A DNA stretch of 64,000 bases from Tribonema minus (taxonomy: Eukaryota > Sar > Xanthophyceae > Tribonematales > Tribonemataceae). Shown one piece after another: positions 38,668 to 52,424 of the stretch (position 1 is the stretch's first letter; the number at the start of each line of letters is the position of its first letter). Made by a program: the position numbers and the translations under genes. Below the pieces are notes generated by a model. The model saw only the letters and a list, made by a program, of their open reading frames with translations. It did not search any database and had not been told where the DNA came from. The DNA lies in assembly GCA_017506865.1 (NCBI GenBank), contig JAFCMP010000536.1, positions 186,001-250,000 on the forward strand, written 5' to 3'.

Positions 38668-39688
38668 CTACGGAGGGGCCGGCGGTTCGGCGCTGGCCGG
38701 CGAGGGCCGCGGCACTTGCAACAGTGCGATGCGGCGGTAAGCACTGACGTCGCCATCAGGGGCAATGACTGCGTTCCAGTTGTCGATCACGACACGTGTG
38801 AGCGCGCGCTGTAGCGCGAGGGAGGTGCGGCGGCGCCAGAAGGCAACGCGCTGCGCGAGATTGTAGCTGCCCTGCGAGCTCTGCTCGGCGAGTGCGTGTA
38901 GCAGCGCTTGTGTGTCGCATGACATAGCGCCGAAGTGGTCAAAGGCTGCGGAAAATAGGGTGTGTGTAGTGGGGTCCAGGGCCCCTGAGACTACGTATGT
39001 GTCTATCTTTTCCTGCGAAGCCGATTCAAGCACGCGCTGCACATCGCGCGCGCCCCCCTGAGCCTGACGGAGGCGGGAGGGACATGAGCTGTCACGTATG
39101 GTGACGTCTATGCAACAAGCTACTTCAAAGCCGCCGCGCAGTTTAGTGCACCGGCCTGCCGCTACCGCGTCAGCGCTCGGCTGCACTTTAGGGACTGGAA
39201 GGCAGATCTGGTTGCTGCCGAAGACGATGTCCATGAACTTGTTGAACCCGTGGCGCGCCGCGTAGCGGCGGAAGGGGGCAAGGGTGTCCCGGTCGAGACC
39301 GCGGAGGTGGGCCACCTGCTTGAGCAGCTGAAAAAGCGCGTCTGCGAGCAAGTTGTGTCGCGTGACGTTGAGCCCTTGTGTGCAGCGGCGCAGGTGGGCA
39401 CCTGACTCCACTGTTTTATGACACTTGGGGCACCGCGCCGCAGCGGAGGCGGGGCGCTCCACGCCCAGGTGGCGCCGCAGCGTCTCGCGGAATTCCGGCG
39501 GCGACATGGTCTCCGCTGGGTCAGTGCTCGGCAGTTGTGCCAAGAAACCCATGGCCCCCTTAGAGGCACCGCTGCGCCACGCCGCGACTGCTTCCAACGC
39601 ATTTGCTGCTTCAAGCCGGCGCAGCTGCGTGGCGGCGAGCGCTGCGTCTAGCACCCGTGATAGCGCGGCTTGACGCCGCGGCAGCACG
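38668..39688 (-). pseudogene. Non-LTR retrotransposon, C-terminal part (split by LTR element)
   Basis: This is the distal part of the frame that starts at 52424. It begins at the LTR insertion point with VLPRRQAALSRVLDAAL and ends at the stop at 38668. It contains a zinc-knuckle-like CPKCHKTVESGAHLRRC (C-x2-C-x8-H-x3-C). Downstream is GFEVACCIDVTIRDSSC and a later EKIDTY, which resemble the restriction-like endonuclease that follows the zinc finger in R2/CRE-type elements. Frame and sense match across the insertion (see 49965-52424). Endonuclease assignment is by motif order and is moderate. The frame shown from upstream codons 39729-39689 is LTR sequence, not part of the original gene. Confidence 0.7.
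39685..39688. other. Target site duplication, left copy
   Basis: CACG directly before the 5' LTR equals CACG at 49965-49968 directly after the 3' LTR. A 4-bp duplication is slightly shorter than the usual 5 bp of Ty3/gypsy integrases. Confidence 0.8.
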
Positions 39689-40083
39689 TGACACGGTTTG
39701 ATGTATATAATTGAAGTACTTATTATCAATAGGCTTATGATGTGTCAGTGCCCTCATGTTCAGTCTTGTGTACATACACTCAGAGCATAGGAAGTGAGAC
39801 TGCTGCATTGTAGTGGATCTTCATGACTATTAAGACTTGCCCCTTGTTTGGGGGTTTGCAAGTATTGATGGCCATGAGATCTCTGCATAAGCACACAACC
39901 TGAGAGCTGGAGCAACAAGACCAAGTAGAGGCACAGTGACTGAAGCCACCCAACAACATCCACTATGGCTCCCCCAGCAGCAGCATCATCATCAGCATCA
40001 GCAGCAGCCCAGGCTGCAGAGACAAGTAAGCCATGCATGCCACAGATCTTTACAACCACACACCTACATAGTTGCATGTTAGA
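39689..40083 (+). repeat. 5' LTR (395 bp)
   Basis: It begins TGACACGG and ends GTTAGA and is identical to 49570-49964 by eye. Near its 3' part an ATG at 39965 opens a short Ala/Ser frame (MAPPAAASSSAS) that runs into ACAA|GTAAGC, a good splice donor. Confidence 0.93.
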
Positions 40084-40084
40084 A

Positions 40085-40102
40085 TGGCACCCTACAGACA
40101 GG
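40085..40102 (+). other. Probable primer-binding site
   Basis: TGGCACCCTACAGACAGG starts one base after the 5' LTR. TGG is the complement of a tRNA CCA end. The priming tRNA would end in GGGTGCCA. No tRNA was matched from memory. Confidence 0.55.
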
Positions 40103-42413
40103 CTTTACCTTCCCCTCCGCTCCGCAGATAGTTCAGTAGGCTACTCGTGCTAACGCACCGTACTCGTTAGCCGACTAGCTAACCATTCTAGCTCGTCCTG
40201 ACCGCTGCGGAGGCTAATTCTTCTTACGCACATTAAAGCTTATCTCGTCACGTTAGGCTCTTAACACTCCATTGAATAGTAGGCACCTTCGCGCTAGCGG
40301 ACGCGCGGCGTGGTTGGTTGCTATTCGTACTAATTGTTGTTTATGGAGGACAGAGAAAGTTCAGGAAACTTGGGGAAATGGCTGGCAGTAGCAGCTTCGA
40401 GACACGCTCTGCCGCCACTTTGCTACACGATGTTAGCTGTCATCGCAGTCGCAAACACTCAACAGCCGTGCTTTGGCTGTGTAGGCAGCCCTCCGCCTGA
40501 GTGCCCGCATAAGTTTACTCGTGCGCGGCGGTGCACACGCGCTGTACGACGTCAGTTGTTAGCGCTGAAATACGGGATGATGAGGTTGATGGCCATCAAT
40601 GCACAGTGTAGCGCACTGCCTTGCATACGCCTAAGTGGGATCAGAGGTTAACAGATTACAGACCCCCCACCCTTTGTTTCCTAGCACCGTTGCGTGTAAC
40701 CGACTTGCGGCCGCAATTCGTCCGCCAGGTTCTGTCGCGGCCTGCCGGTAGTACTGCACGTCCAATGCAGTAGCTATTTTGTCAGATGGATGCATGATGC
40801 GTACGTGCGTACATGCGAGAGAGAGAGAACCACATTTCAGCAAAGACAGCAGCGCTAACTCATGACGTTAAAGATAGAATTTGATCAAGCTTGCTGCTCG
40901 GCGCGGGCAGGCTCGCTTGTTTCATGCGCGCTCTAACCGGTGCTACCTGCAGATTCGAGCACTGCGCGCAGCACAAATGGTAGAGGCGAGATAAGCAGGC
41001 ATTTAACATCTTGTGGAAGTGTTACTTGTCTTGATGTGCTGACCCATGCTGGCATATGTATGGGCAGAATACACACGGATTCCAGTTGCTGATGTGCTGT
41101 GAGCAGGGGGATGTCTGGCAATTGCATTACCATGCTCACAGCGCATAATCAAAGATGATGACTGAACGAAGAGGAATAGCGTGGTGCGAATGGGGTCTAA
41201 CACATGTTCCTTGTCATGGACAGACTCAGAATTTTAGAAGAGAATGCAGCCCGCATCAAAGCCACGTGCGGCGCACGGTGCATACCGCATGTGTTGAGGA
41301 GGTGCACGGGGTCAGACTCAACTTCACGCGGCTTTCAGCAGCTGTGAAGCAGTCTGACACTGTCCTCCGCGCACACGGGTCAGGGCTGACAGCGCGGTCA
41401 CGGTTGACGATGAACTGGATTCCATGATGGATATCCAGGTCACTGACGCCGAGCGACTGCGCGCCCTGATCGGCACGAAGAGAGAGAGAGAGATGTTGAG
41501 CCATCTGCAGCGGGCTGTGCGGTGACTGTGCAATTTGCAGTCGCTGCCACCCGCTCGGTGTCGTCTGCTTCACCCTCGAAAGAGGCAGGCAGCGGTGTCC
41601 ACGACGAACCCTCCTTGGAGGACGGCGGTGGTGCTGGATCGAGCGTGTCGCAGGATACAAAGACCTGTAGCGTTAAGTCGCTGTCGCGCTCGACACGTGA
41701 CCAGAAGTATGAACAGAGAGAGTCGAGCACACATGCTGCCGCAGTCACCGCGCTCCAGTTGCAGGTCGCCACCGCCACTGCGGTCGCGTCAGCCGCGCAG
41801 CCCCGGCGTCAATTACGCCGCCCCTGCTGGCGCGCCGGGCGTGCCCCCCTCGTACTATGTTTGCGGCGCCTTGCAGGCTACCGCGCTGCACCAGGCTGAG
41901 CATGGCTTGGAGCAGGGCAGGGAAAGCTATGATGGCTTGCTGGCCGTTGCTGCCGCCATGACGCGCGCGCCCAGCGCCAGCGTCGCGCAGCGGAGTGCAA
42001 TCATGGAGCAGCTTGCGGACTACGGAGTCGCGCACATTGGTGAGTCACGCTCGCGTGCGCGCGTACCCAGCCAAGATGCTGCTGCCTCTGAGCCGCGTCG
42101 AACGCTTGCTGGCACTGACAGACGTGCGGCACCTATTGACGCGCTCATGCGTAACGCAGTGCGCGGTCAGCGCCGCTGGGTTGCTGTGTGCACTGCTCGC
42201 ACCGTCACTGCTCACCGGTGCCCCCATGCAGGTGGCACCCGTGGTTGCAGTTGACGTTGAAGTTGACAATGATAGATGTACACCACGTTCAGAGCCGTTG
42301 CCGTCAGGTTCAGCACCTGACGGCAACTCTACATCTGTGTGTGCTGCTGCTGCTGCCACATAGGACCTTGACACTGACAGAACAGTGACAGGGGCAGCGC
42401 AGCGCATCACTCA
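40103..42413 (+). other. Leader and gag-like region of the LTR element
   Basis: About 2.3 kb separates the primer site from the methyltransferase. One frame (41535-42254) is Ala/Arg/Ser-rich and includes QATALHQAEHGLEQGRES and IMEQLADYGVAHIG. It lies where gag is expected but has no capsid homology or zinc knuckle that I recognise. An acceptor-like CCTTGCAG at ~41876 precedes QATALHQ and could pair with the LTR donor. Function is uncertain. Confidence 0.35.
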
Positions 42414-43901
42414 TGCCTCCTTTGCTGTGGCATTGGAGAGTGGGACGAGGGGCTTGCCCAGGCAAGCGTGGTTGGCTTTGCAGTGAACACTCAACTGCCG
42501 TTGACATGTGTCCCCGCGTGTGTAAGGCCTACCATGAATTGCACCCTCGCACCCCACAAGTGCTGAATGCATGTTTGAGCAGCGTTGAAGTTACCAAAGC
42601 ACTGGTTGAACTTGACCCTGATCTCACCACGATCTCCCCCCCGTGCACAGACTATGCCAATGGACTGGGCATCGAGGACGAGGCCGCCGAAGTGACAGAG
42701 AAGGCCGCGCAGCTCACCGTGAGGGCGGGGCTGCGTTGATGTTTGATTGAGAACGTGGTATCCATGCTGAGCTCGAGGGCTTGGGCACGGGCGGAGGCTA
42801 TACTGCTGGAGGCGGGCTACTTGCTGTACGTGAGCAAGCTCAAGGGCTCGGAGTTTAGCATTGCCTGCCACAGGCGCCGAGTTTACATACTCGCCGTCAA
42901 GGCAGGACCGGGGGTAACCGCCGCTGCGGCGCGGTTTGGGGCTTTGCTTAAATGCTATTCAGCGTTCATCATTGCCAGTCTCGGTCCGCCGTGTTCTTCG
43001 CTGCCCTGAGCGCTGTTTCTTTTGGAAATCACGCACCAAGGGTTGCAAAAGCGTGTATGCTGCCACTGATTGCATGCCAAGCCCTGTTCGAAGGAACCCT
43101 GGCAAACCGCCGGTGGACCTTGCTGACTATGTGCCTGATGCAGTCAACGATGCTGGTACTGTGCATGAAGCTAGAGTGCTGTCATTGCGCGAGATGGCTG
43201 TGTTGCTCACATTTACACGCGACCTGCCAACAAGTGCCACCATCGAAGACGTGAAGTTGTGGCTAGTGAATCTTGTCATGCCCCGCATGGCATTTGACCT
43301 AGCAGTTGCCCTTGCAGGCTCTGGCATACTAGACCTTCCCGCTAGCGTCTCGTGCTCTCGAGGCGTTCGCTTGGACCATGATCCGTCTGCGCCCCGCCCT
43401 GAATGGATGCAGTCGGATTTGGAAGGCATTGTGCATGTGGCAGAGACCCGTGAAGAGCAAGCGCGTACGCAGGTTAGGGTTGCTGCCATTACTGCTGCTC
43501 ACTGCAGTTGGCAGCACCGCATTACACCTAACATGATTAGTGCCGAGGGCCTCAACACTGGCCCTTGGTCCTCCATTGACGCGTACCAGGATGAGACAGT
43601 TGAAGATGAGACAGTTGAACTTGAAGATGACAGCGATGAAGAAGAACCGCTCATGCAGAGCTCAGTCGGTGACGGTGATTCGTCACACTGCCACCCTACA
43701 GGCAGTGATGACAATGATGAGCCCTCGTTTGACAATGACCCCCATGAAGTTCTGCGCAGACAAGGGCGTGGCAACCCACGTGTCAGCGCTGTCGCAGCTA
43801 GGCTTAATGAGGAGATTGGGAAGCCACTACACTCAATCGTGGACCCTGCCTTGGTTAGACCTGGTGAGACGGTAGTGCAACCAACCGGCGCCCCTAGCTA
43901 A
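42414..43901 (+). CDS. Cytosine-5 DNA methyltransferase in the LTR element (frames broken)
   Basis: C5 methyltransferase motifs follow in order. Motif I LLCCGIGEWDEGLAQA binds AdoMet (42417-42464, frame 0). Then come VDMCPRVCKAYHELHP and motif IV TISPPCTDYA, whose Cys at 42644 is the expected nucleophile. Motif VI is IENVV (42746 on), motif VIII is HRRRVYILA (~42869), motif IX is LSLREMAVLLTF (~43179) and motif X is VNLVMPRMAFDLA (~43266). An acidic tail (VEDETVELEDDSDEEE) leads to a TAA at 43901, in frame with pol. This copy shifts frame at ~42480 and ~42900 and has a TGA at 42737, between motifs IV and VI. The target-recognition stretch between VIII and IX is short. Methyltransferases captured by retrotransposons are known from dinoflagellates and charophytes (de Mendoza and colleagues). 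Presence here is read directly. Confidence 0.88.
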
Positions 43902-43916
43902 CAATGCTTTGGCCGG

Positions 43917-46900
43917 ATGGTAGCACGAGTACAGCGTCAGCGCAGGTTCAAAGAGCAAGACTTTATTGCCTTGCTGGACCCTGGTGCTGAAGCTGGCATG
44001 ATGTCAGAAGAAGAGGCCCGGAAGCTTTCTCCTGGGGGAATTTGCCCCCTAGAGAAGGGGGACCATTCAGTTATTGAGCTAGCAGACAATCACACTCTGG
44101 TGAAGATACAGGGTGTGGTGTACCTTACACTGCGGTTTGGCAATAAGCTGGTGCGGCACAAGTTCTATGTGGTGAACCTGCCCATCACCACCATCCTGGG
44201 CAGTGATTTCTTTGGCTTGTACAGCACCTTGTTTGATTCCAAGGACCTGACATACACACCGCTGGGAGCCGAGGGCCCCACCTTGAGAATGCTAGACAAT
44301 ACGAAAGTACGAGCGGCAAGCTCGGTGCTGCGCGATGCCAAGGTTGCAGGTGTCGTGCAAACGAGCCCAGAAACCTGCGCACCACCGGCGTATCGTGCTG
44401 TGTGCCTGGTGGAGGACATACTCATCCCCGCGCACACAGAGATGACAGTTGAAGTTGCACTTAACCCGCCGGTGCAAGGGCTCACCCCCTACACGGCGAC
44501 CATAGAGCCTTCAGTGTCCCAAACGATGTTGAAGTTGCAAGAAAGAGGTGTGAAAGCCGCGATGCCAATAGATATAGTGAGCGCGCAAAACCCTGTCAGG
44601 GCCCGATTGGTGAACTTCTCGGATCAATCAGTGTTGGTGACCAGGAACACCTACATTGGTGATGCGCGCCCCGCACGGCCAGATGAGATCATTGAGCTGG
44701 AAGCCGCAAGCGCACTCCAGCTGGAGCAAAAGCTCTTGCGAGTAGCCGCTGCGCACAACCCTGATGTGGCGTTTCGCGCGGCAGCAATGCAAGCGCTAGC
44801 CGCCATAGACAACGAGAAGAGTGCAGGTATGTATGGTGCCACGGCGAAGGCGTCGGCCGCCGCCGCCGGCAACGCGCGCACGCGCACTTCGCAAGAACCA
44901 TGCACCACCGAAGAGCTTCGCGAGATGTTGCCAAAGGATGGCGACCTGTATGAGATGAAGGCTCCGGATGGCAGACTGTATGCTGAGCACCTCATGGACA
45001 TTTTCAACGAGTTCTCGAGTGTATTTGCCAAGGACCCCAAAAACCCTACAGTGACCAACCTCATGGAGTTTGAGATTGACACTGGTGATGCAATGCCAAT
45101 TGCTGAGAAAGACAGACGATGGGCGCAAAAAGAAGCAGAGTACATCATGGAACATGTCAAGGCAATGCCACTGCGAAAGCAGGTAGAGCCTAGCAATGGA
45201 CCATGGGCCTGTAACCCTGTGCTTGCGCGACAGGGGGACAAGATCAGATTTTGCGTGGACTTCCGCCGTCTCAACGCTGTGACAAAGCGCGACAGCAGAG
45301 GTCTGGGCAACATTGATGACATGGTGCATCAGATGAAAGGCGCCAAGTTCGTGTCATCCATTGACATGGCCGCCGGCTACCATCAGATACCATTGAGAGA
45401 AAGTGATAAGCCCAAAACTGCTTTCCGCACGCCAGATGGCGGGCTGTGGCAGTATACAGTCGCCCCGTTTGGTTTGGTGAACCTGCCTGCGCAGTTCACA
45501 CGTCTGATGCACAACACACTAGGCTCAGCCCTAGGGGCCTACGCCATGGTGTATGTTGACGATGTGCTGATGTACGATGACTCAATGGAAGCGCACTTGA
45601 CTCACATTCGAGAAGTCTCGTCACGAATTCAGAACGCTGGCCTCAGTGTGGCTAGACACAAGTGCCAGTGGTTCCAAAGTGAGATCAAATTTCTTGGTCA
45701 CATTGTGGGCGCTGGAGGCATACGCCCCGACCCTGAAAGGTCCAGGCCATGGCTGACATGAGTGCGCCATTGAATGCAAAGGGAAGAGCTGATTTGAAGC
45801 TGGTGCGTACGGTACTGGGTTGCTTCAACTACTACCGAAGATACGTTGACCACTTTGCAGAACTGGCTGCGCCGCTGGTGGAGCTGACTAAAACTGATGC
45901 CAACATGGAATGGGACCGACGAAGGCGTGACGCCTTTGAAGGACTCAAGCAGGCCATGTGCACAGCAAAGTTGGTGTCACACCCGGACTTCTCACTGCCG
46001 TTTGTGCTATACACCGATGCCTCTCAAACCGCCTGCAGTGGCATATTGACGCAATTCAAGCCGGTAGAAGCACTCAGTGGCAAAGAAGCTGCCCCTGCGG
46101 CAGGCCGCAGACGCACAGTAAATGGGAGGGAGGAAATGGAAGTGGTAGTGGGTTATTTTTCAAAAATTAACTCCACACAAGACGCCAAGATGGGCGCTAC
46201 CGCACTTGAATGCCTAGCCGTTGTGCTTTCACTCAACCACTACCGACCGTACGTATGGGGGGACCCAGTCACTGTGGTCACAGATGCAGCAGCCCTGCGC
46301 TGGCTGTTGACGTTACAAGATCAAAACGGCAAGTTGATGCGATGGGCCATGAGGTTGCTGGAGTACGACATCACAGTACAACACCGACCAGGCTTGGTCA
46401 ACTCAAACGCCGATGGGCCCTCAAGACTGCCGATGCAGAAAGAGCAGAAAGAGTTAGACGCGCCGAGAGAATATGATCATGCAGACGAGCAGTGGTCAGA
46501 CTCCATACCGTGCTTCGCAGCACCACCTTCAGGGGTGAAGTTTGCGGCGGCAAGGGTAAACCATGAGTCTGAGCCACAAGCACCGCTGCAGGCTATGCGT
46601 ATTGCGAACTTCAGAGGCAGACTCGGAAGCTCAGAATGGGGCAACCCCTTCAGCCTCAACGAGCTGGCCATGAACGACACAAGCGACGATAGTTTAGTTG
46701 CCAAGCTGTCAGCACTTACAGTTACGCAAGTGAACGAAAGGTTAGATGAGCTGGAGGAAGAGGACTGTACGTGGACGGATGGAGAGACCACCGCACTGTC
46801 TTTCAGCCCAGCTACGCTTCACATGTATGCCAATGCATGCATGGACGAGGCAGCGGCGCCCGATGGGGGCGTCCACACCTCTAGCAGAGCCACGGAGAGA

Positions 46901-49301
46901 GCAGAGAAGAGACGGAAAGTAGCTGCAAGCACTACTGCACCGCAAAGTGGGGGCGCCATCCCTCCTCAGCGCGCAGAAGACGTGTCGGAACGACGCCGCA
47001 AACGCACAATCAGCGAGCCCAGCCGTGGACTGGTCCCCCAGCAACCTGCTGCAGGACCTAACCCTACTCCAGCGATGCTCAGCAGAGAAGCCTTTGTAGA
47101 GTTCCAGCAGCGAGACCCCCACAGCCAGGCCATAGCCCGCACACTGAGAGAAGGGATCCTTCCCCAGGACAGTGAGCTGGCCTTACACCTGATGATGAAC
47201 CAGGATTGGTACTGCATTGAAGACGATGGACTGTCGGTGCACCTGGCCACTAGTCACCCCAAACGCGGGATGGTGCTGCGCCAATGGCTGGTACACCACA
47301 GCTCTGAGAGCCCTAGTGCTGAGACTTGGACACGATGACGCCACGGCCGGGCATGCAGGCGTCAGCGCTACCCACTTGCGAATCTTTGAGCGCTTTTACT
47401 GGCCTCAGATGAGCACTGATGTGCGTGCCTACGTCACTAGTTGTACCGCGTGCTTGCAGCGCAAGAAAGCTACCACTGGTAAAGCCCAGCCGATGTTGAC
47501 GCTGCCAACTCGCATGTTCCAGCGAGCGCACACAGACATCACTGCGACGTCCATGACCTCCACTGACGGCCATGTTGCCATTTTGACAGTGATTGAAGCT
47601 CGCTCTGGTTTTTGCTGGCTCATGCCAATCAAGAACAAGGACAAGTTCACCATTGCCACCTTGCTGTACAAGGTGATTTTAGAAGCGGGGGCCATGTTCA
47701 AAGAGCTTGTGTCTGATCAGGGCAAGGAGTTCTTCAACCAGGTGGTGCATGACCTGTGCAGAATTTTCCAGATCAGGAAAATTGACACTGCTGCATACCA
47801 CCCCCAAGCGAATGGCATTGCAGAGAGACAGAATGAGCGAATTATAGCAGTCCTAGCCGCGTGGGTCAACAAGACACAGAAGAATTGGCATGAGGGCCTA
47901 GAAGCGGTGCAGTTTACACTACGCGCCACACCCAGGGAAGAGACGGGCTTGAGCCCCTTGTTCTGCGTGTATGGTCGCGAGCCTACCCTGCCTTTTGAGA
48001 CCTTTGTTGACGAAACCCATGGTGGTGACCTGCACGCAGAGGTTGAGCGCAAGATTGACAACTTCAAGCTGGCCCAGAAAGTGATTGATGACGCCTATGG
48101 CATCAAAGTGCGCAGGATTGACAAAGCCAATGAGGCTGTCAAGCGCGCAATGCATGTCAAGGTCGGCGATCTGGTCATGATACGCCAGGCGCCTGCCAAG
48201 GGCCGATCTAAGAAGTTGGGCCCGAAGTTTGGAGGCCCTTGGGTGATTGTTGAGCAGGCAGGTGGTTCAGGGTTGTCATTTTCATGCCGCATGATCATCA
48301 TGATGGGGCGTCACATACGCCGCACACGCCAGCATGTGACTAACATGAAGCCCTTTCACCTGAGGCCCGAAGTCCTAAAGACTGACCGGCCATACGCCCT
48401 GCTCAATGCCGACGATTTAAAAATGTTGGCGCCTGGCGAGATGATGGAGCGCTTGGTGGACCGCCGGTACAACCCCAATGGTTCCTGGGACTACCGCTGG
48501 CTCCTGCGCGATGGTTCCACGAGTGGCTGGAAGACGGAGCACGAGGCGCTCGAGGTTGCCATGCCTTGGACGCTTGACACCTTCCACGCACTCTATGAGC
48601 TCAAGCATGAGAACAATATGCCAGACTACGCGATGCGCGTGCCCAAGGGAGACGTGCGCGTTGCCACGAAAGAGGCGGCGCTGGCGCTCTTCCCCAGAGG
48701 TACAAAAGTAGCGCGAGAGCACAGAGACTCACTCAAGCAACGAGTCAAGTACGTGTGGGGGACCGTTGTCGGCTACCTAGCCCCGTACTGGCGCGTACGC
48801 TATGAAGACGGCGAGTGGGAGGACTTCACCAAGAGGCAGTTGCAGTTACCCATTGCTCTTGCTGAGGCCACCCAGCAGCAGGCTAAAGATGTAGGGGTCA
48901 CCACTGCAAACCCCCAAGTTGTGCAGAAAATGTGCCCTGGCATCCCTGTCGATTTTGGCGAGACCTACTTAGGTCAGACTGTGCGCGTGAAGCATGTGAC
49001 TGGCTGGAGCCGCGGAGTGCTGAAAGAGTATCTGCCCCGGTCCGGCAAGTACACGTTTCGGGTGTGGTACAATGGCCAGCCGGCTTCACAGCTGGTCACC
49101 GTCAAGCTTCGGCCTGAGTACTACACGACTGCCGCAACGACCGCTGAGGCTGAGGCGTGCCCCATGACGAGCTGGAACTTGCTGCTTCTCACGGCGCAAG
49201 AGCAGAGCACCGCCCGGGATGAGCGCGACCCAGACTCAGACTCGTCCAATGAATGTGAAGCGATGGAAGTTAGCGACGACGAAGAGAATTTTGAGAGCTG
49301 A
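43917..49301 (+). CDS. pol polyprotein: protease, RT, RNase H, integrase, chromatin readers
   Basis: Protease: ALLDPGAEAGMMS (43968 on), with Asp-Pro-Gly where D-S/T-G is usual, and a partner ILGSDFF. RT: DMAAGYHQIPLRESDKPKTA, APFGLVNLPAQF and YVDD at 45552-45563. RNase H: FVLYTDASQTACSG ... ALECLAVV ... TDAAALRWL. Integrase: an H-H-C-C zinc finger (HDDATAGHAG ... CTACLQRKK), then D at 47535, D at 47715 and E at 47823, giving D,D-35-E. The tail has chromodomain-like MERLVDRRYNPNGSWDYRWL (~48444-48551) and two Tudor-like segments (VWGTVVGYLAPYWRVRYEDG at ~48729-48851; ~48969-49112). It ends acidic. The frame shifts at ~45735 and ~47310, where homology flows across, so single bases have been lost or gained. 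Confidence 0.9.
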
Positions 49302-49556
49302 TTCAGAAGTTCAAGAGCGAAGCACAAACACAACTTGCGGTTGTGGTAGAGCTGTGGCTATGCAGTGTGAACGATGAACATGACGCTGCATGGTACCAAC
49401 GTGTAACCTCGGACAGGACAGTCCATATGAGAGCACTACCGGTTGAGGGCAGAGATAATAAGTGTAGCTATGATGATACATCTAACAGTGGTACGTACGT
49501 TGGCAGCGCTGATCCCATTTTGGTCTCAGTCGTTTCTCTGGGGACAGAGAAAGGTC

Positions 49557-49568
49557 GAGAAGGGGGAG
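49557..49568 (+). other. Polypurine tract
   Basis: GAGAAGGGGGAG ends one base before the 3' LTR, the expected site for plus-strand priming. Confidence 0.75.
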
Positions 49569-49569
49569 T

Positions 49570-49964
49570 TGACACGGTTTGATGTATATAATTGAAGTAC
49601 TTATTATCAATAGGCTTATGATGTGTCAGTGCCCTCATGTTCAGTCTTGTGTACATACACTCAGAGCATAGGAAGTGAGACTGCTGCATTGTAGTGGATC
49701 TTCATGACTATTAAGACTTGCCCCTTGTTTGGGGGTTTGCAAGTATTGATGGCCATGAGATCTCTGCATAAGCACACAACCTGAGAGCTGGAGCAACAAG
49801 ACCAAGTAGAGGCACAGTGACTGAAGCCACCCAACAACATCCACTATGGCTCCCCCAGCAGCAGCATCATCATCAGCATCAGCAGCAGCCCAGGCTGCAG
49901 AGACAAGTAAGCCATGCATGCCACAGATCTTTACAACCACACACCTACATAGTTGCATGTTAGA
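49570..49964 (+). repeat. 3' LTR (395 bp)
   Basis: Identical to the 5' LTR over its whole length by direct reading. Followed by the CACG target duplication. Confidence 0.93.
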
Positions 49965-52424
49965 CACGGCGGCCGGCGGGGCCTGGGCGGAGCCTGGCTC
50001 GCGCGCCGCCGCTGGCGCAGCGCGGCGCGCGCCGGCGCGAGTCCGCATGCCCAGCCCCGCAGCTCCGCCTGCCGGTTGCAGCAGATCGCGCAGTGCCCGC
50101 CACGCGCCGTCGTCCTGGCGCCAGTCCTGGTACCAGACCGAGGGCAGGAGCAGTGCGAGGGCCGCTGCGGCATCATCGCTGCCGCTGCGCAGCTGCTGCA
50201 GGCAGGTAGCTATCTGAGTGAAGGTGAAGCCGTAGCGGGCGTGCTCTAGGACGCGGCTGCGTGCCGCCACTGGAAACGCCGCCAGTGCCGGTCCCATGCA
50301 CTCGAGGGTACGCGCAGCAAATGCGGCACATGCACGCGGCGCCGCGCCCAGCACGCCAAAGCCGCCGCTCCCCAGCCGCAGATGCACGCGTACCTGCTGA
50401 TGTGCTAGTAGCGTCACCGGGGCCTCGCCACCCCAGTCGGCGCCGCGTACCCATGCCACTGCCGCCGCCCACAGAGAGGGCGGTGCCGCCGCCGCCGCAA
50501 CCGCCGGCGGGCTGCGGCAATTGCCACCAGCCGCCGGCGCGCCCTCGTGGGCCGGCGGCGTAAGGCCCGCCGATGGCTCCTGCGCCAGCGCAGCCACGGC
50601 CGCCAGCGTGATGGCGTCGAAGCGCCGTAGCTCCTCGTGCGTGAGGGATGGCGCCGTGTTGCGCGCGACATGCCCTGCGCGGGCGGGGACAGCAAGACGC
50701 AGAATCGAGAAGGCAGCCTGCACATCCTCCATCTGCACCAGCTCCGCCACCAGGCGGTCGGTGCCGGGGGCACGAAGGGTCGCCGCTACGCGTGTGCGCA
50801 CGAAGTCCTCGGTGCCCACCGGCACCCCCATCAGCGTGACGCCGTCGTCACATACTGGTACGGGGACATCGGCGGCGGCGAAGACGGCGGCGGCGCGCGC
50901 GCGGGCGCCGCCTGAGGCCGGCACCAGCGCTGCGCATTTCGTGACGTTGACCTGAATGTTCAGCTCGCTCAGCGCCTGTTGTATAAAGCAGAAAGCGCGG
51001 CCAACGTGGCCGAGCACTGGCGCGTCACAGCTGGGCGTCATGATGGTGAGGTCATCGAGGTAGCCCGGAAGCGCCAGCTGCGGGAACTTGGCGCGGGCAG
51101 CCACCATGGTGCCGCGCAGTGCCAGCGCGAACAGCAGCGGCCCCAATGGGTCGCCCTGCTGCACACCCTGTTGGTAGAGGATGATGGCGGCGTCGGCGTG
51201 CCCATCTAGGCCAAATTGTAGCCAAGGGGCCCGCCCGGGGCCGTAGATGTGCTCGCCGTAGCCGTACAGGCCAGGCAGATGCTCGGCCACCGCAGTGAGG
51301 ACTGCCGAGCGCGACAGCGCGTTGAAGGCATTACTGCCGTCAATGGCAAGGAGCACGCCGCCGCACTCATGCGTGAGCTGCGCCATGAGCGCCACCCTCT
51401 CCGCGCCCCCCCGCGCGCCGACCCCAAACTGGCCAATGGTTTCTAGCAGCGCGGAGACACGGTCTCGGGTGTCCGTGCAGAAGGTGCGGGCGAACAGGCG
51501 GCGGATGGTGTCGCCGCACGCGATGGGGCGCGCCTTCTCGCCCACAGCGCTGAGGCGCGCGGCTGCATGGAGGCGCCAAAAGGGGGCGGGCAGCGTGGCG
51601 GGGGTGGAGTACGCAGTGGTACCCAGCTACGCCAGTAGCTCAAGGAGCCAGTCAACCATGCGCCCCGACGTGTGCGCCGTGTGCCGGACGCACTGCTGGA
51701 GGTGGGAGTTGCGCAGCCCAGAGGGACCGGCGGCCGAGCCAGGGTTGGCGGCGAGGATGGCCTCACGTAGCCCGTCCGCTGTGAACGAAGCGCAGTTGAG
51801 TGGTGCCGGCGCCGCCAGCGCCGCCGCCGCCACTGAGCTGCGCGTCCGCGATGCCGCGGCATCCAGCTTCGCACACGCATCGCCAGCTGGGTGTTTAGCC
51901 TGCAGTTTATGCAAGGTAGCGGAGTCGCGGGGGGCAGATGTGTCAGCACCCTCCGCCAGCAGCCGGGCGGCGCGCCTGACGCCGCCCGGCTGCCGCGCCG
52001 TCGCCGCCGCGCGCTCGCGGACTGCCGCCGCCGCCTCCGTCATGGACCTAGCGCGACGCGCGCACGCACGGGCGGCGCCACGGCGGCAGAAGGCCAGCGC
52101 TGTGCGCGTGAGTAGCTCCAGCTCGCCTGCCGCGAAGGCCGTGAAACGGTGCGCCCGCGGCAAGGAAGCGTCGGGCACTAGCAGCAGGCACGGCAGCAGA
52201 TGCAGCAGCTTGCACCATGCACCCGCTGTAGCGGACGCCTGCGCCGCTGCCTCGGCACCGTGCGCCTGCGCTACCGCCGTTTGCGCCTCCCGGAGGCCCG
52301 CCAGCGTGGCCGTCAAAGCGGCCGTGAAGTCCGAGCGGTGCTCCAGGCGAATGCGGCGGCCAAGTTGAAGTTGAAGTTGAAAAGTAGACAACGCACCAGA
52401 AATTACGCGCCCACGGCAACGCAT
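49965..52424 (-). pseudogene. Non-LTR retrotransposon, N-terminal and RT part
   Basis: A minus-strand frame starts near 52424. Its first 265 residues include ANPGSAAGPSGLRNSHLQ, typical of the start of a LINE reverse transcriptase, and stop at a TAG at 51629-51627. The same frame continues after the TAG through KARPIACGDTIRRLF, LAIDGSNAFNALSR (palm Asp), QQGVQQGDPLGPLLFALAL and GYLDDLTIM (YLDD at 51062-51051), then an Ala-rich thumb region up to the LTR insertion at 49965. It resumes in the same frame at 39684. Lesions are therefore one nonsense codon and one 10.3-kb insertion. With the zinc finger and endonuclease-like tail, it belongs to an R2/CRE-like class. Coding GC is much higher than the LTR element's. 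Confidence 0.82.

Follow-up and report, generated by a model that had tools for sequence, protein, structure and literature searches.

A cytosine-C5 methyltransferase (DNMT) is a standing, family-wide domain of a Ty3/Gypsy retrotransposon clade in Tribonema minus, a yellow-green alga of the stramenopiles. Unbroken copies encode the domain within a single polyprotein together with gag and pol, and its substitution pattern points to purifying selection. We consider it most likely, with a probability of roughly one half, that this domain methylates the element's own DNA and that the copy in the stretch of DNA analyzed here is a non-autonomous derivative of such elements.

A broken methyltransferase in a young Ty3/Gypsy copy

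The window (the whole 64,000-nucleotide stretch that was analyzed, from the 158-Mb, 554-contig T. minus genome) contains a 10.3-kb element at positions 39689-49964, the features of which are collected in Table 1. Its assignment to Ty3/Gypsy follows from the LTRs, the target-site duplication, and the domain order protease, reverse transcriptase (RT), RNase H, integrase, with the protease recognized partly by motifs, as its Pfam matches lie below cut-off. The pol region of this copy is divided among three open pieces. The first-pass annotation, made from the sequence alone, had proposed that a Ty3/Gypsy element had captured a C5-methyltransferase, located upstream of its protease, and that the host was probably a stramenopile. 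This is borne out: the DNMT region has a decayed gag on one side and the protease on the other, and the host is indeed a stramenopile. The candidate primer-binding site would be expected to pair with a tRNA.

Table 1. Features of the element in the window.
Feature	Position	Strand	Evidence or remarks
Target-site duplication CACG, left	39685..39688	.	
5' LTR, 395 bp	39689..40083	+	100% identical to 49570-49964; 1 CpG vs ~21 expected, CpG o/e 0.05
Candidate primer-binding site TGGCACC...	40085..40099	+	Directly 3' of the LTR; same place in the C201 and C121 copies
Gag remnant, large deletion and several frame breaks	41200..42387	+	blastn pieces vs gag part of the L024 ORF
Broken C5-methyltransferase (DNMT) region	42399..43502	+	Homology span; PF00145 piece; intact relatives
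DNMT motif I	42423-42455	+	Read from sequence
DNMT motif IV	42635-42658	+	Read from sequence
DNMT motif VI	42746-42760	+	Read from sequence
DNMT motif VIII	42872-42895	+	Read from sequence
DNMT motif IX	43179-43208	+	Read from sequence
DNMT motif X	43266-43295	+	Read from sequence
Aspartic protease	43947..44210	+	PF13650/PF13975, E ~0.01, below cut-off; DPGA and ILGSDF motifs
Reverse transcriptase (RT)	45237..45707	+	PF00078, 1.1e-29; YVDD
RNase H	45986..46366	+	PF17917, 3.2e-23
Integrase, zinc-binding and core domains	47298..47804	+	PF17921, 2.2e-18; PF00665, 1.3e-9
Tudor-like C-terminal segment	48747..48842	+	PF21743, 0.0011, below cut-off
Candidate polypurine tract	49555..49569	+	Purine-rich run 5' of the 3' LTR
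3' LTR	49570..49964	+	395/395 identical to the 5' LTR
Target-site duplication CACG, right	49965..49968	.	

All six motif strings named in the first-pass annotation can be read at approximately 42423-43295, yet they are spread over different frames. Motif I lies in the frame of 42378-42563, and motif IV in an open piece (42389-42736) that a stop ends just 5' of motif VI; motifs VI and VIII share the piece 42740-43006, and motifs IX and X the piece 42918-43898. When these pieces were searched separately against Pfam, the third matched PF00145 at E 0.0014 and 18.6 bits, under the 22-bit cut-off, and the other three gave no match. The DNMT is thus untranslatable as one piece, and this copy encodes no whole enzyme. 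The region is nonetheless a genuine DNMT despite its weak own match, because intact relatives score 39.0 and 45.1 bits with the same profile. The originally proposed span, 42414..43330, is a real methyltransferase region but proved slightly short, as homology extends it to about 42399-43502.

The element itself sits inside a minus-strand RT gene, whose two flanks occupy 38671-39687 and 49974-51545; the latter matches PF00078 at 2.7e-8, and the former is without a Pfam match. The interrupted gene looks like a non-LTR element, as far as these matches indicate.

The methyltransferase is present throughout the family

A DNA search with positions 42378-43330 identified at least 40 copies in the genome among the matches scored (of 78 candidates), 11 of them at 96-100% identity (including the window's own) and 29 at 74-76%. 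We examined 11 copies, comprising the window copy, seven of the window type, and three of the 76% kind. One unbroken frame runs through all domains in 2 of the 11, L024 (contig C201; 3087 aa) and L032 (C121; 3093 aa), and the remainder are either broken or truncated where a contig ends. Both intact copies have the order gag-DNMT-protease-RT-RNase H-integrase. Their PF00145 matches (residues 798-963, 39.0 bits, E 8.7e-10 in L024; residues 807-971, 45.1 bits, E 1.2e-11 in L032; cut-off 22) are followed downstream by Pfam matches to RT, RNase H, and integrase, and by eye we recognize a DPGA protease motif, YVDD, and, upstream of the DNMT, a zinc-finger-like CX2C...H...C pattern. A Tudor-like tail in L032 falls short of its cut-off (PF21743 2.1e-5, 24.7 bits vs 27.2). 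Eight further places in the genome carry DNMT and RT together in open frames of 3104 aa.

The linkage between the two domains holds at the scale of the genome. With the L032 RT as query, 50 matches reach 85% identity or more, and 44 of them are preceded by a DNMT at a distance of 0-4.5 kb; five of the six matches lacking one lie near a contig start, at most 2.6 kb from it. When matches of every identity are counted, at least 102 of 138 RT matches have a DNMT upstream; this is a lower bound, with 138 of 549 RT candidates scored and the two DNMT sets scored for 123 of 378 and 110 of 452. The DNMT places used in this pairing came from these two sets and from 16 matches of the DNA search. Distinct DNMT places in the two sets together number at least 195, a figure that includes three virus-like genes and one DNMT2 exon. 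Among 35 listed DNMTs at 93% identity or more to that of L032, 26 cover all 373 residues without a stop and nine are split or shortened, and all six members of the set designated A1 match PF00145. The methyltransferase is therefore present in other family members and not confined to the one copy. One open frame of 6208 aa on contig C311 (C311:3904-7296), with DNMT and RT matches, is twice the normal polyprotein length, and perhaps represents a tandem pair of elements joined in frame.

Three lineages with at least two domain orders

By blastp, 14 sampled TE-like DNMT loci fall into clade A (L024, L032, L040, L006, L036, L039), clade B (L035, L008, L037, L038, L005, L007), and clade C (L043, L044). 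Across these three lineages there are at least two domain orders. Where a protease was recognized, it lies 3' of the DNMT in clade A (by motif in L024 and L032, by a weak Pfam match in L040) and 5' of it in clade B, where L037 and L038 have weak Pfam matches (in L037, protease at 251-342 and then DNMT at 513-831) and the ORFs of L005, L007, and L008 have a protease-like reading 5' of the DNMT by eye; Pfam detected no protease in L035, L036, and L039. In clade C, the RT of L044 lies downstream of the DNMT in a separate open piece, and no RT was found in L043. The L007 element has an integrase followed by a chromodomain (PF00385, 5.4e-8). The original picture of a single methyltransferase-bearing element therefore stands as regards the enzyme domain, but not as regards the element, as the window copy is broken and the domain occurs in several lineages with differing orders.

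In the DNMT tree, clades A, B, and C are joined at 81/90, which is not strong, with C beside A at 80/89. The RT tree (10 loci) recovers A at 93/94 and B at 100/100, with the pairs L024/L032 and L036/L039 within A; as this tree has no outgroup, it does not give the branching order among A, B, and C. The two trees agree on groups A and B and on the pairs inside A, and RT identity between A and B is approximately 28-36%. One old capture would explain these results, with co-descent and a later change in the position of the DNMT with respect to the protease, but so would two captures whose sources were related. A bolder proposal is that a single ancient capture of a non-DNMT3 enzyme predated the split of the three lineages, that the enzyme has since been a core domain paired, within the element, with a Tudor-like or chromodomain reader, and that these elements are a main source of genomic cytosine methylation; we regard this as doubtful. 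Were it true, at least 102 RT-linked DNMTs would be a main methylation source in an alga reported, in the survey text available, without DNMT1 (PMC10538959).

Two features of the flanking sequences of these elements deserve mention. At L047/L048 (contig C340), a 3.6-kb stretch repeated at 99.7% identity flanks a clade B element and may be a nested or tandem copy. Among primer-binding candidates (L045, L046, L047, L049), the window family has TGGCACC and two clade B elements TGGTTCC, so that the window family and these two elements likely use different primer tRNAs, to judge by these short sites.

Catalytic residues and selection

An alignment of six members, five of them at 34-78% identity to the first, shows an invariant cysteine, ENV, and RxR in all six, which we take to be motifs IV, VI, and VIII, respectively; motif I and parts of motif IV vary in some members. 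For L024 vs L032, the DNMT has a Nei-Gojobori dN/dS of 0.153 over 398 codons, beside 0.275 for gag (part), 0.134 for protease, 0.022 for RT, 0.04 for RNase H, 0.07 for integrase, and 0.109 for the C-terminus; with dS at 1.06 in the DNMT and 1.3-2.8 elsewhere, these ratios are approximate. The less diverged pair L037/L038 (dS 0.41) gives 0.067 for the DNMT and 0.037 for RT, and L035/L037 gives 0.205 and 0.08. DNMT ratios of 0.209 for L036/L039 and 0.277 for L032/L040 come from pairs in which the dS of RT is saturated. Although constraint on the DNMT is weaker than on RT (0.153 vs 0.022 in L024/L032), these ratios indicate that the DNMT is under purifying selection.

Affinities of the methyltransferase

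A profile search of the PDB found DNMT2 as the best match (6.8e-13), followed by M.HhaI (2.4e-8) and by DNMT1 at 1.2e-4 or weaker; DNMT3 was absent from the 53 matches. Searched alone, the L032 domain had no significant match in the PDB (best E 0.11). Approximately unbiased (AU) tests rejected grouping with human DNMT3A both for clade A (p 0.0025) and for A+B+C (p 0.007), where the DNMT3 reference is one human DNMT3A fragment on a long branch. Grouping with DNMT2 gave p 0.07 for A, 0.14 for A+C, and 0.047 for A+B+C, the last a marginal rejection. The trees span ~185 residues and a small set of references that lacks DNMT5 and DNMT6 and has one DNMT1 fragment, on a long branch. In the best of them, the two DNMT2 proteins group with each other (100/99) and fall outside the clade of retroelement DNMTs (81/90). 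The rejections above, with their single DNMT3A fragment, set the T. minus enzymes apart from the DNMT3 type reported in Gypsy elements of charophytes and DIRS elements of dinoflagellates, so that they were likely captured or transferred separately, as suggested from the outset.

Searching 5.8 billion proteins with the L032 domain yielded seven matches among the 7996 candidates scored: JGI metagenomes supplied four (61-75% identity) and T. minus the other three. A profile search recovered four of those seven and three distant proteins (E 7e-9 to 3e-6). One metagenome protein, P0005, is 80% identical to L024 over 175 residues and groups within the window family. No polyprotein-sized protein was found among the distant relatives and no relatives in IMG/VR; phage matches amounted to six records at 24-30% identity.

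The genome also contains methyltransferases unlike those of the retroelements. L001 (C223:936374-939871), L002, and L003 are free-standing DNMT genes of 367-390 aa, with PF00145 scores of 131 bits in L001 and 115.6 in L002, and L001 adjoins a deoxynucleotide monophosphate kinase (PF21448, 2.8e-21), which suggests that they lie in endogenous DNA-virus stretches. Uniting the virus-like L001 and L002 with the retroelement DNMTs in one clade gave an AU p of 0.057, short of rejection, although they stand apart in the best tree. L004 (C523), with SPPCQPYTRIG and ENVQGFE, groups with human DNMT2 at 100/99 and is apparently a DNMT2 exon of the host. A search of the genome for SRA and DNMT1-RFD domains gave no match, the control genomes being equally silent; the available text of a published survey lists CDCA7, HELLS, and DNMT5 for T. 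minus, and not DNMT1 (PMC10538959).

Recent movement of a gag-deleted, DNMT-broken subfamily

The window copy and those on contigs C27, C84, and C68 have in common two DNMT frame breaks in the part with motifs I-II and the same large deletion in gag. In the sister group, the DNMT is without frame break in the C201 (reference), C239, C72, and C146 copies, the latter three having frame breaks outside the DNMT. Differences between paired LTRs, per 395 sites, number 0 in the window copy, 0 in C27, 6 in C84, and 9 in C68, and the C84 copy is flanked by TTGA on both sides. These LTR pairs indicate that the window subfamily moved recently, presumably mobilized by proteins of intact relatives. Recent transposition of a lineage broken in both DNMT and gag means that the DNMT is unnecessary in cis.

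CpG footprints

The window LTR has 1 CpG and 28 GpC in 395 bp (Poisson P ~7e-7 at the CpG level of the window), beside a CpG observed/expected ratio (o/e) of 0.81 in the element body, and among 1273 intervals of 395 bp across the 64 kb, the five with the lowest values all overlap the two LTRs. Six window-family LTRs (that of the window and five more) have o/e values of 0.05-0.19, below all six LTRs examined from Copia elements (0.23-0.68; bodies 0.88-0.93), in which Pfam detected no DNMT. For the Copia loci L052 and L055, which have further repeat pairs, the ORF-flanking pair alone was counted. LTRs of three other DNMT-bearing elements lie at 0.42-0.72. More generally, the LTRs examined (L017-L056 and the window) are CpG-poor relative to the bodies with or without a DNMT, the window family being extreme. 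We considered this CpG desert as a sign of self-methylation and rejected it, as the LTRs of the DNMT-less Copia elements are likewise poor in CpG.

Across six window-family copies, transitions affect 52 of 405 CpG columns and 31 of 664 GpC columns, a 2.75-fold excess (p 3e-6), and four window-family pairs give ratios of 2.0-3.9. The clade B pair L037/L038 gives 2.33 (p 5e-5); three other pairs, one of them virus-like, give 1.3-1.55, which is not significant, and one further pair is too alike. A Copia pair, at 34/414 CpG and 20/591 GpC, reaches 2.43-fold (p 0.001), on which ground we also rejected the excess as a footprint of self-methylation; a second Copia pair has too few changes (CpG 2/219, GpC 1/325). 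CpG sites in these transposons thus mutate faster, as expected from CpG methylation, and the DNMT-bearing elements are not marked out among them.

What the methyltransferase may do

The order of domains in unbroken copies, gag-DNMT-protease-RT-RNase H-integrase with a Tudor-like tail in one polyprotein, suggests how self-methylation could operate. The DNMT would be packaged with Gag, in an amount equal to it because the two share a single frame, and would then be freed by the protease. It could methylate the element's new cDNA or the fresh insertion, such that new copies would arrive marked and quiet, with less damage to the host and less loss of copies, and the chromatin-reader tail may aim integration at similar chromatin. 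The window copy, with gag deleted and the DNMT broken, would be a non-autonomous passenger on the proteins of its intact relatives. Against self-methylation stand the unspecific CpG footprints, a DNMT unneeded in cis and less constrained than RT, a DNMT2-like profile that would also suit an RNA substrate, and the published yeast experiment in which the KnitGypsy and SymbioLINE domains gave no methylation.

The DNMT could instead act in trans, on rival elements or host genes, from which the element's own, nearly CpG-free promoter would escape in the window family. The single CpG of the window LTR beside a body at 0.81, and values throughout the family below those of the six Copia elements, are what one would then expect; however, the LTRs of Copia elements, without a DNMT, are also CpG-poor, and those of three other DNMT-bearing elements are much less depleted. 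Because of these two sets of values (0.23-0.68 and 0.42-0.72), LTR CpG poverty is a general trait here, maybe decay rather than armor, and we think action in trans unlikely. Still less probable is that the enzyme methylates RNA, either the primer tRNA or the genomic RNA, and so aids packaging or priming. DNMT2 is a tRNA-methylating enzyme, and it is both the best PDB profile match (6.8e-13 vs 2.4e-8 for M.HhaI) and a partner with which grouping of A or A+C is not rejected; yet DNMT2 forms a well-supported clade outside the retroelement DNMTs, and uniting all of them with it is marginally rejected.

A purely structural role within Gag-Pol, for a domain that has lost its catalytic activity, is improbable: motif I and portions of motif IV do vary in some members, but six divergent ones share an unchanged cysteine, ENV, and RxR, and three clade B members cover nearly the whole PF00145 profile. 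The broken state and weak score of the window copy might also have suggested that a methyltransferase fragment had landed by chance in a single copy; with a DNMT preceding 44 of the 50 close RT copies, that reading is refuted. Self-methylation remains our preferred reading.

Relation to known methyltransferase-bearing elements

What reason a retroelement might have to encode a silencing enzyme has been asked since at least 2018. In that year, de Mendoza et al. described SymbioLINE-Dnmt and SymbioDIRS-Dnmt3 in Symbiodinium and KnitGypsy-Dnmt3 in Klebsormidium nitens (PMC5890265). As that paper presents them, DNMT domains of dinoflagellate DIRS retrotransposons performed de novo CG methylation in yeast, and the KnitGypsy and SymbioLINE domains gave none, a result termed inconclusive there. 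KnitGypsy-Dnmt3 is similar to the T. minus elements in being a multicopy LTR Gypsy whose polyprotein includes a C5-methyltransferase, with purifying selection reported at Ka/Ks < 0.2 (PMC5890265). It differs in its enzyme, which is DNMT3-related, whereas grouping of the T. minus DNMTs with human DNMT3A was rejected (KnitGypsy being compared by its description only), and in its repeats, said to be DIRS-like in arrangement (PMC5890265), whereas the T. minus LTRs are ordinary direct repeats. The T. minus elements further depart from KnitGypsy in where the DNMT sits, 3' of gag and 5' of the protease or, for clade B, 3' of the protease and 5' of RT, and in having a stramenopile host. The Symbiodinium families likewise are many-copy, retrotransposon-borne DNMTs, the isolated DIRS domains methylating CG in yeast, but they are LINE and DIRS elements of other hosts, with the DNMT in an upstream ORF or in the DIRS Pol, according to the same description (PMC5890265). 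A 2025 paper, in its accessible text, names Copia and DIRS families for such captures (PMC12344493). DNMT2 (TRDMT1) resembles the T. minus enzymes as their nearest solved structure by profile and in its SPPC motif IV; it differs in that the two sequences used here stand in a clade of their own with strong support, even if uniting them with the retroelement DNMTs is not firmly rejected.

DNMT-bearing Gypsy elements are thus already known, and what is new here is the other type of DNMT, its other positions, and the stramenopile host. A 2019 opinion, in its available text, refers briefly to Gypsy and DIRS elements that encode methylases in several groups including stramenopiles (PMC6338049), and we found no report of a DNMT-bearing Gypsy in T. 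minus within the open-licence literature, subscription papers lying outside that scope. Gypsy-10_Ec32 of Ectocarpus has a Tudor-bearing Gypsy homolog in T. minus (PMC12477816). The C-terminal Tudor of that lineage has its counterpart in the sub-cut-off, Tudor-like tail of the window family, which may, on this resemblance, be that homolog; the word DNMT is absent from the main text on Gypsy-10_Ec32 and its T. minus homolog (PMC12477816).

In most brown algae, DNA methyltransferases other than DNMT2 are reported lost (PMC13076208, in its accessible part), and DNMT1 is named in one early-branching brown alga (PMC12459048, likewise). Because T. minus is near the brown algae, it bears on whether mobile elements can sustain a methylation system. 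Its genome has, side by side, many recent copies that have or lack a whole DNMT, lineages that differ in DNMT position, and DNMT-less Copia elements, so that methylome and expression measurements would find their controls already in place.
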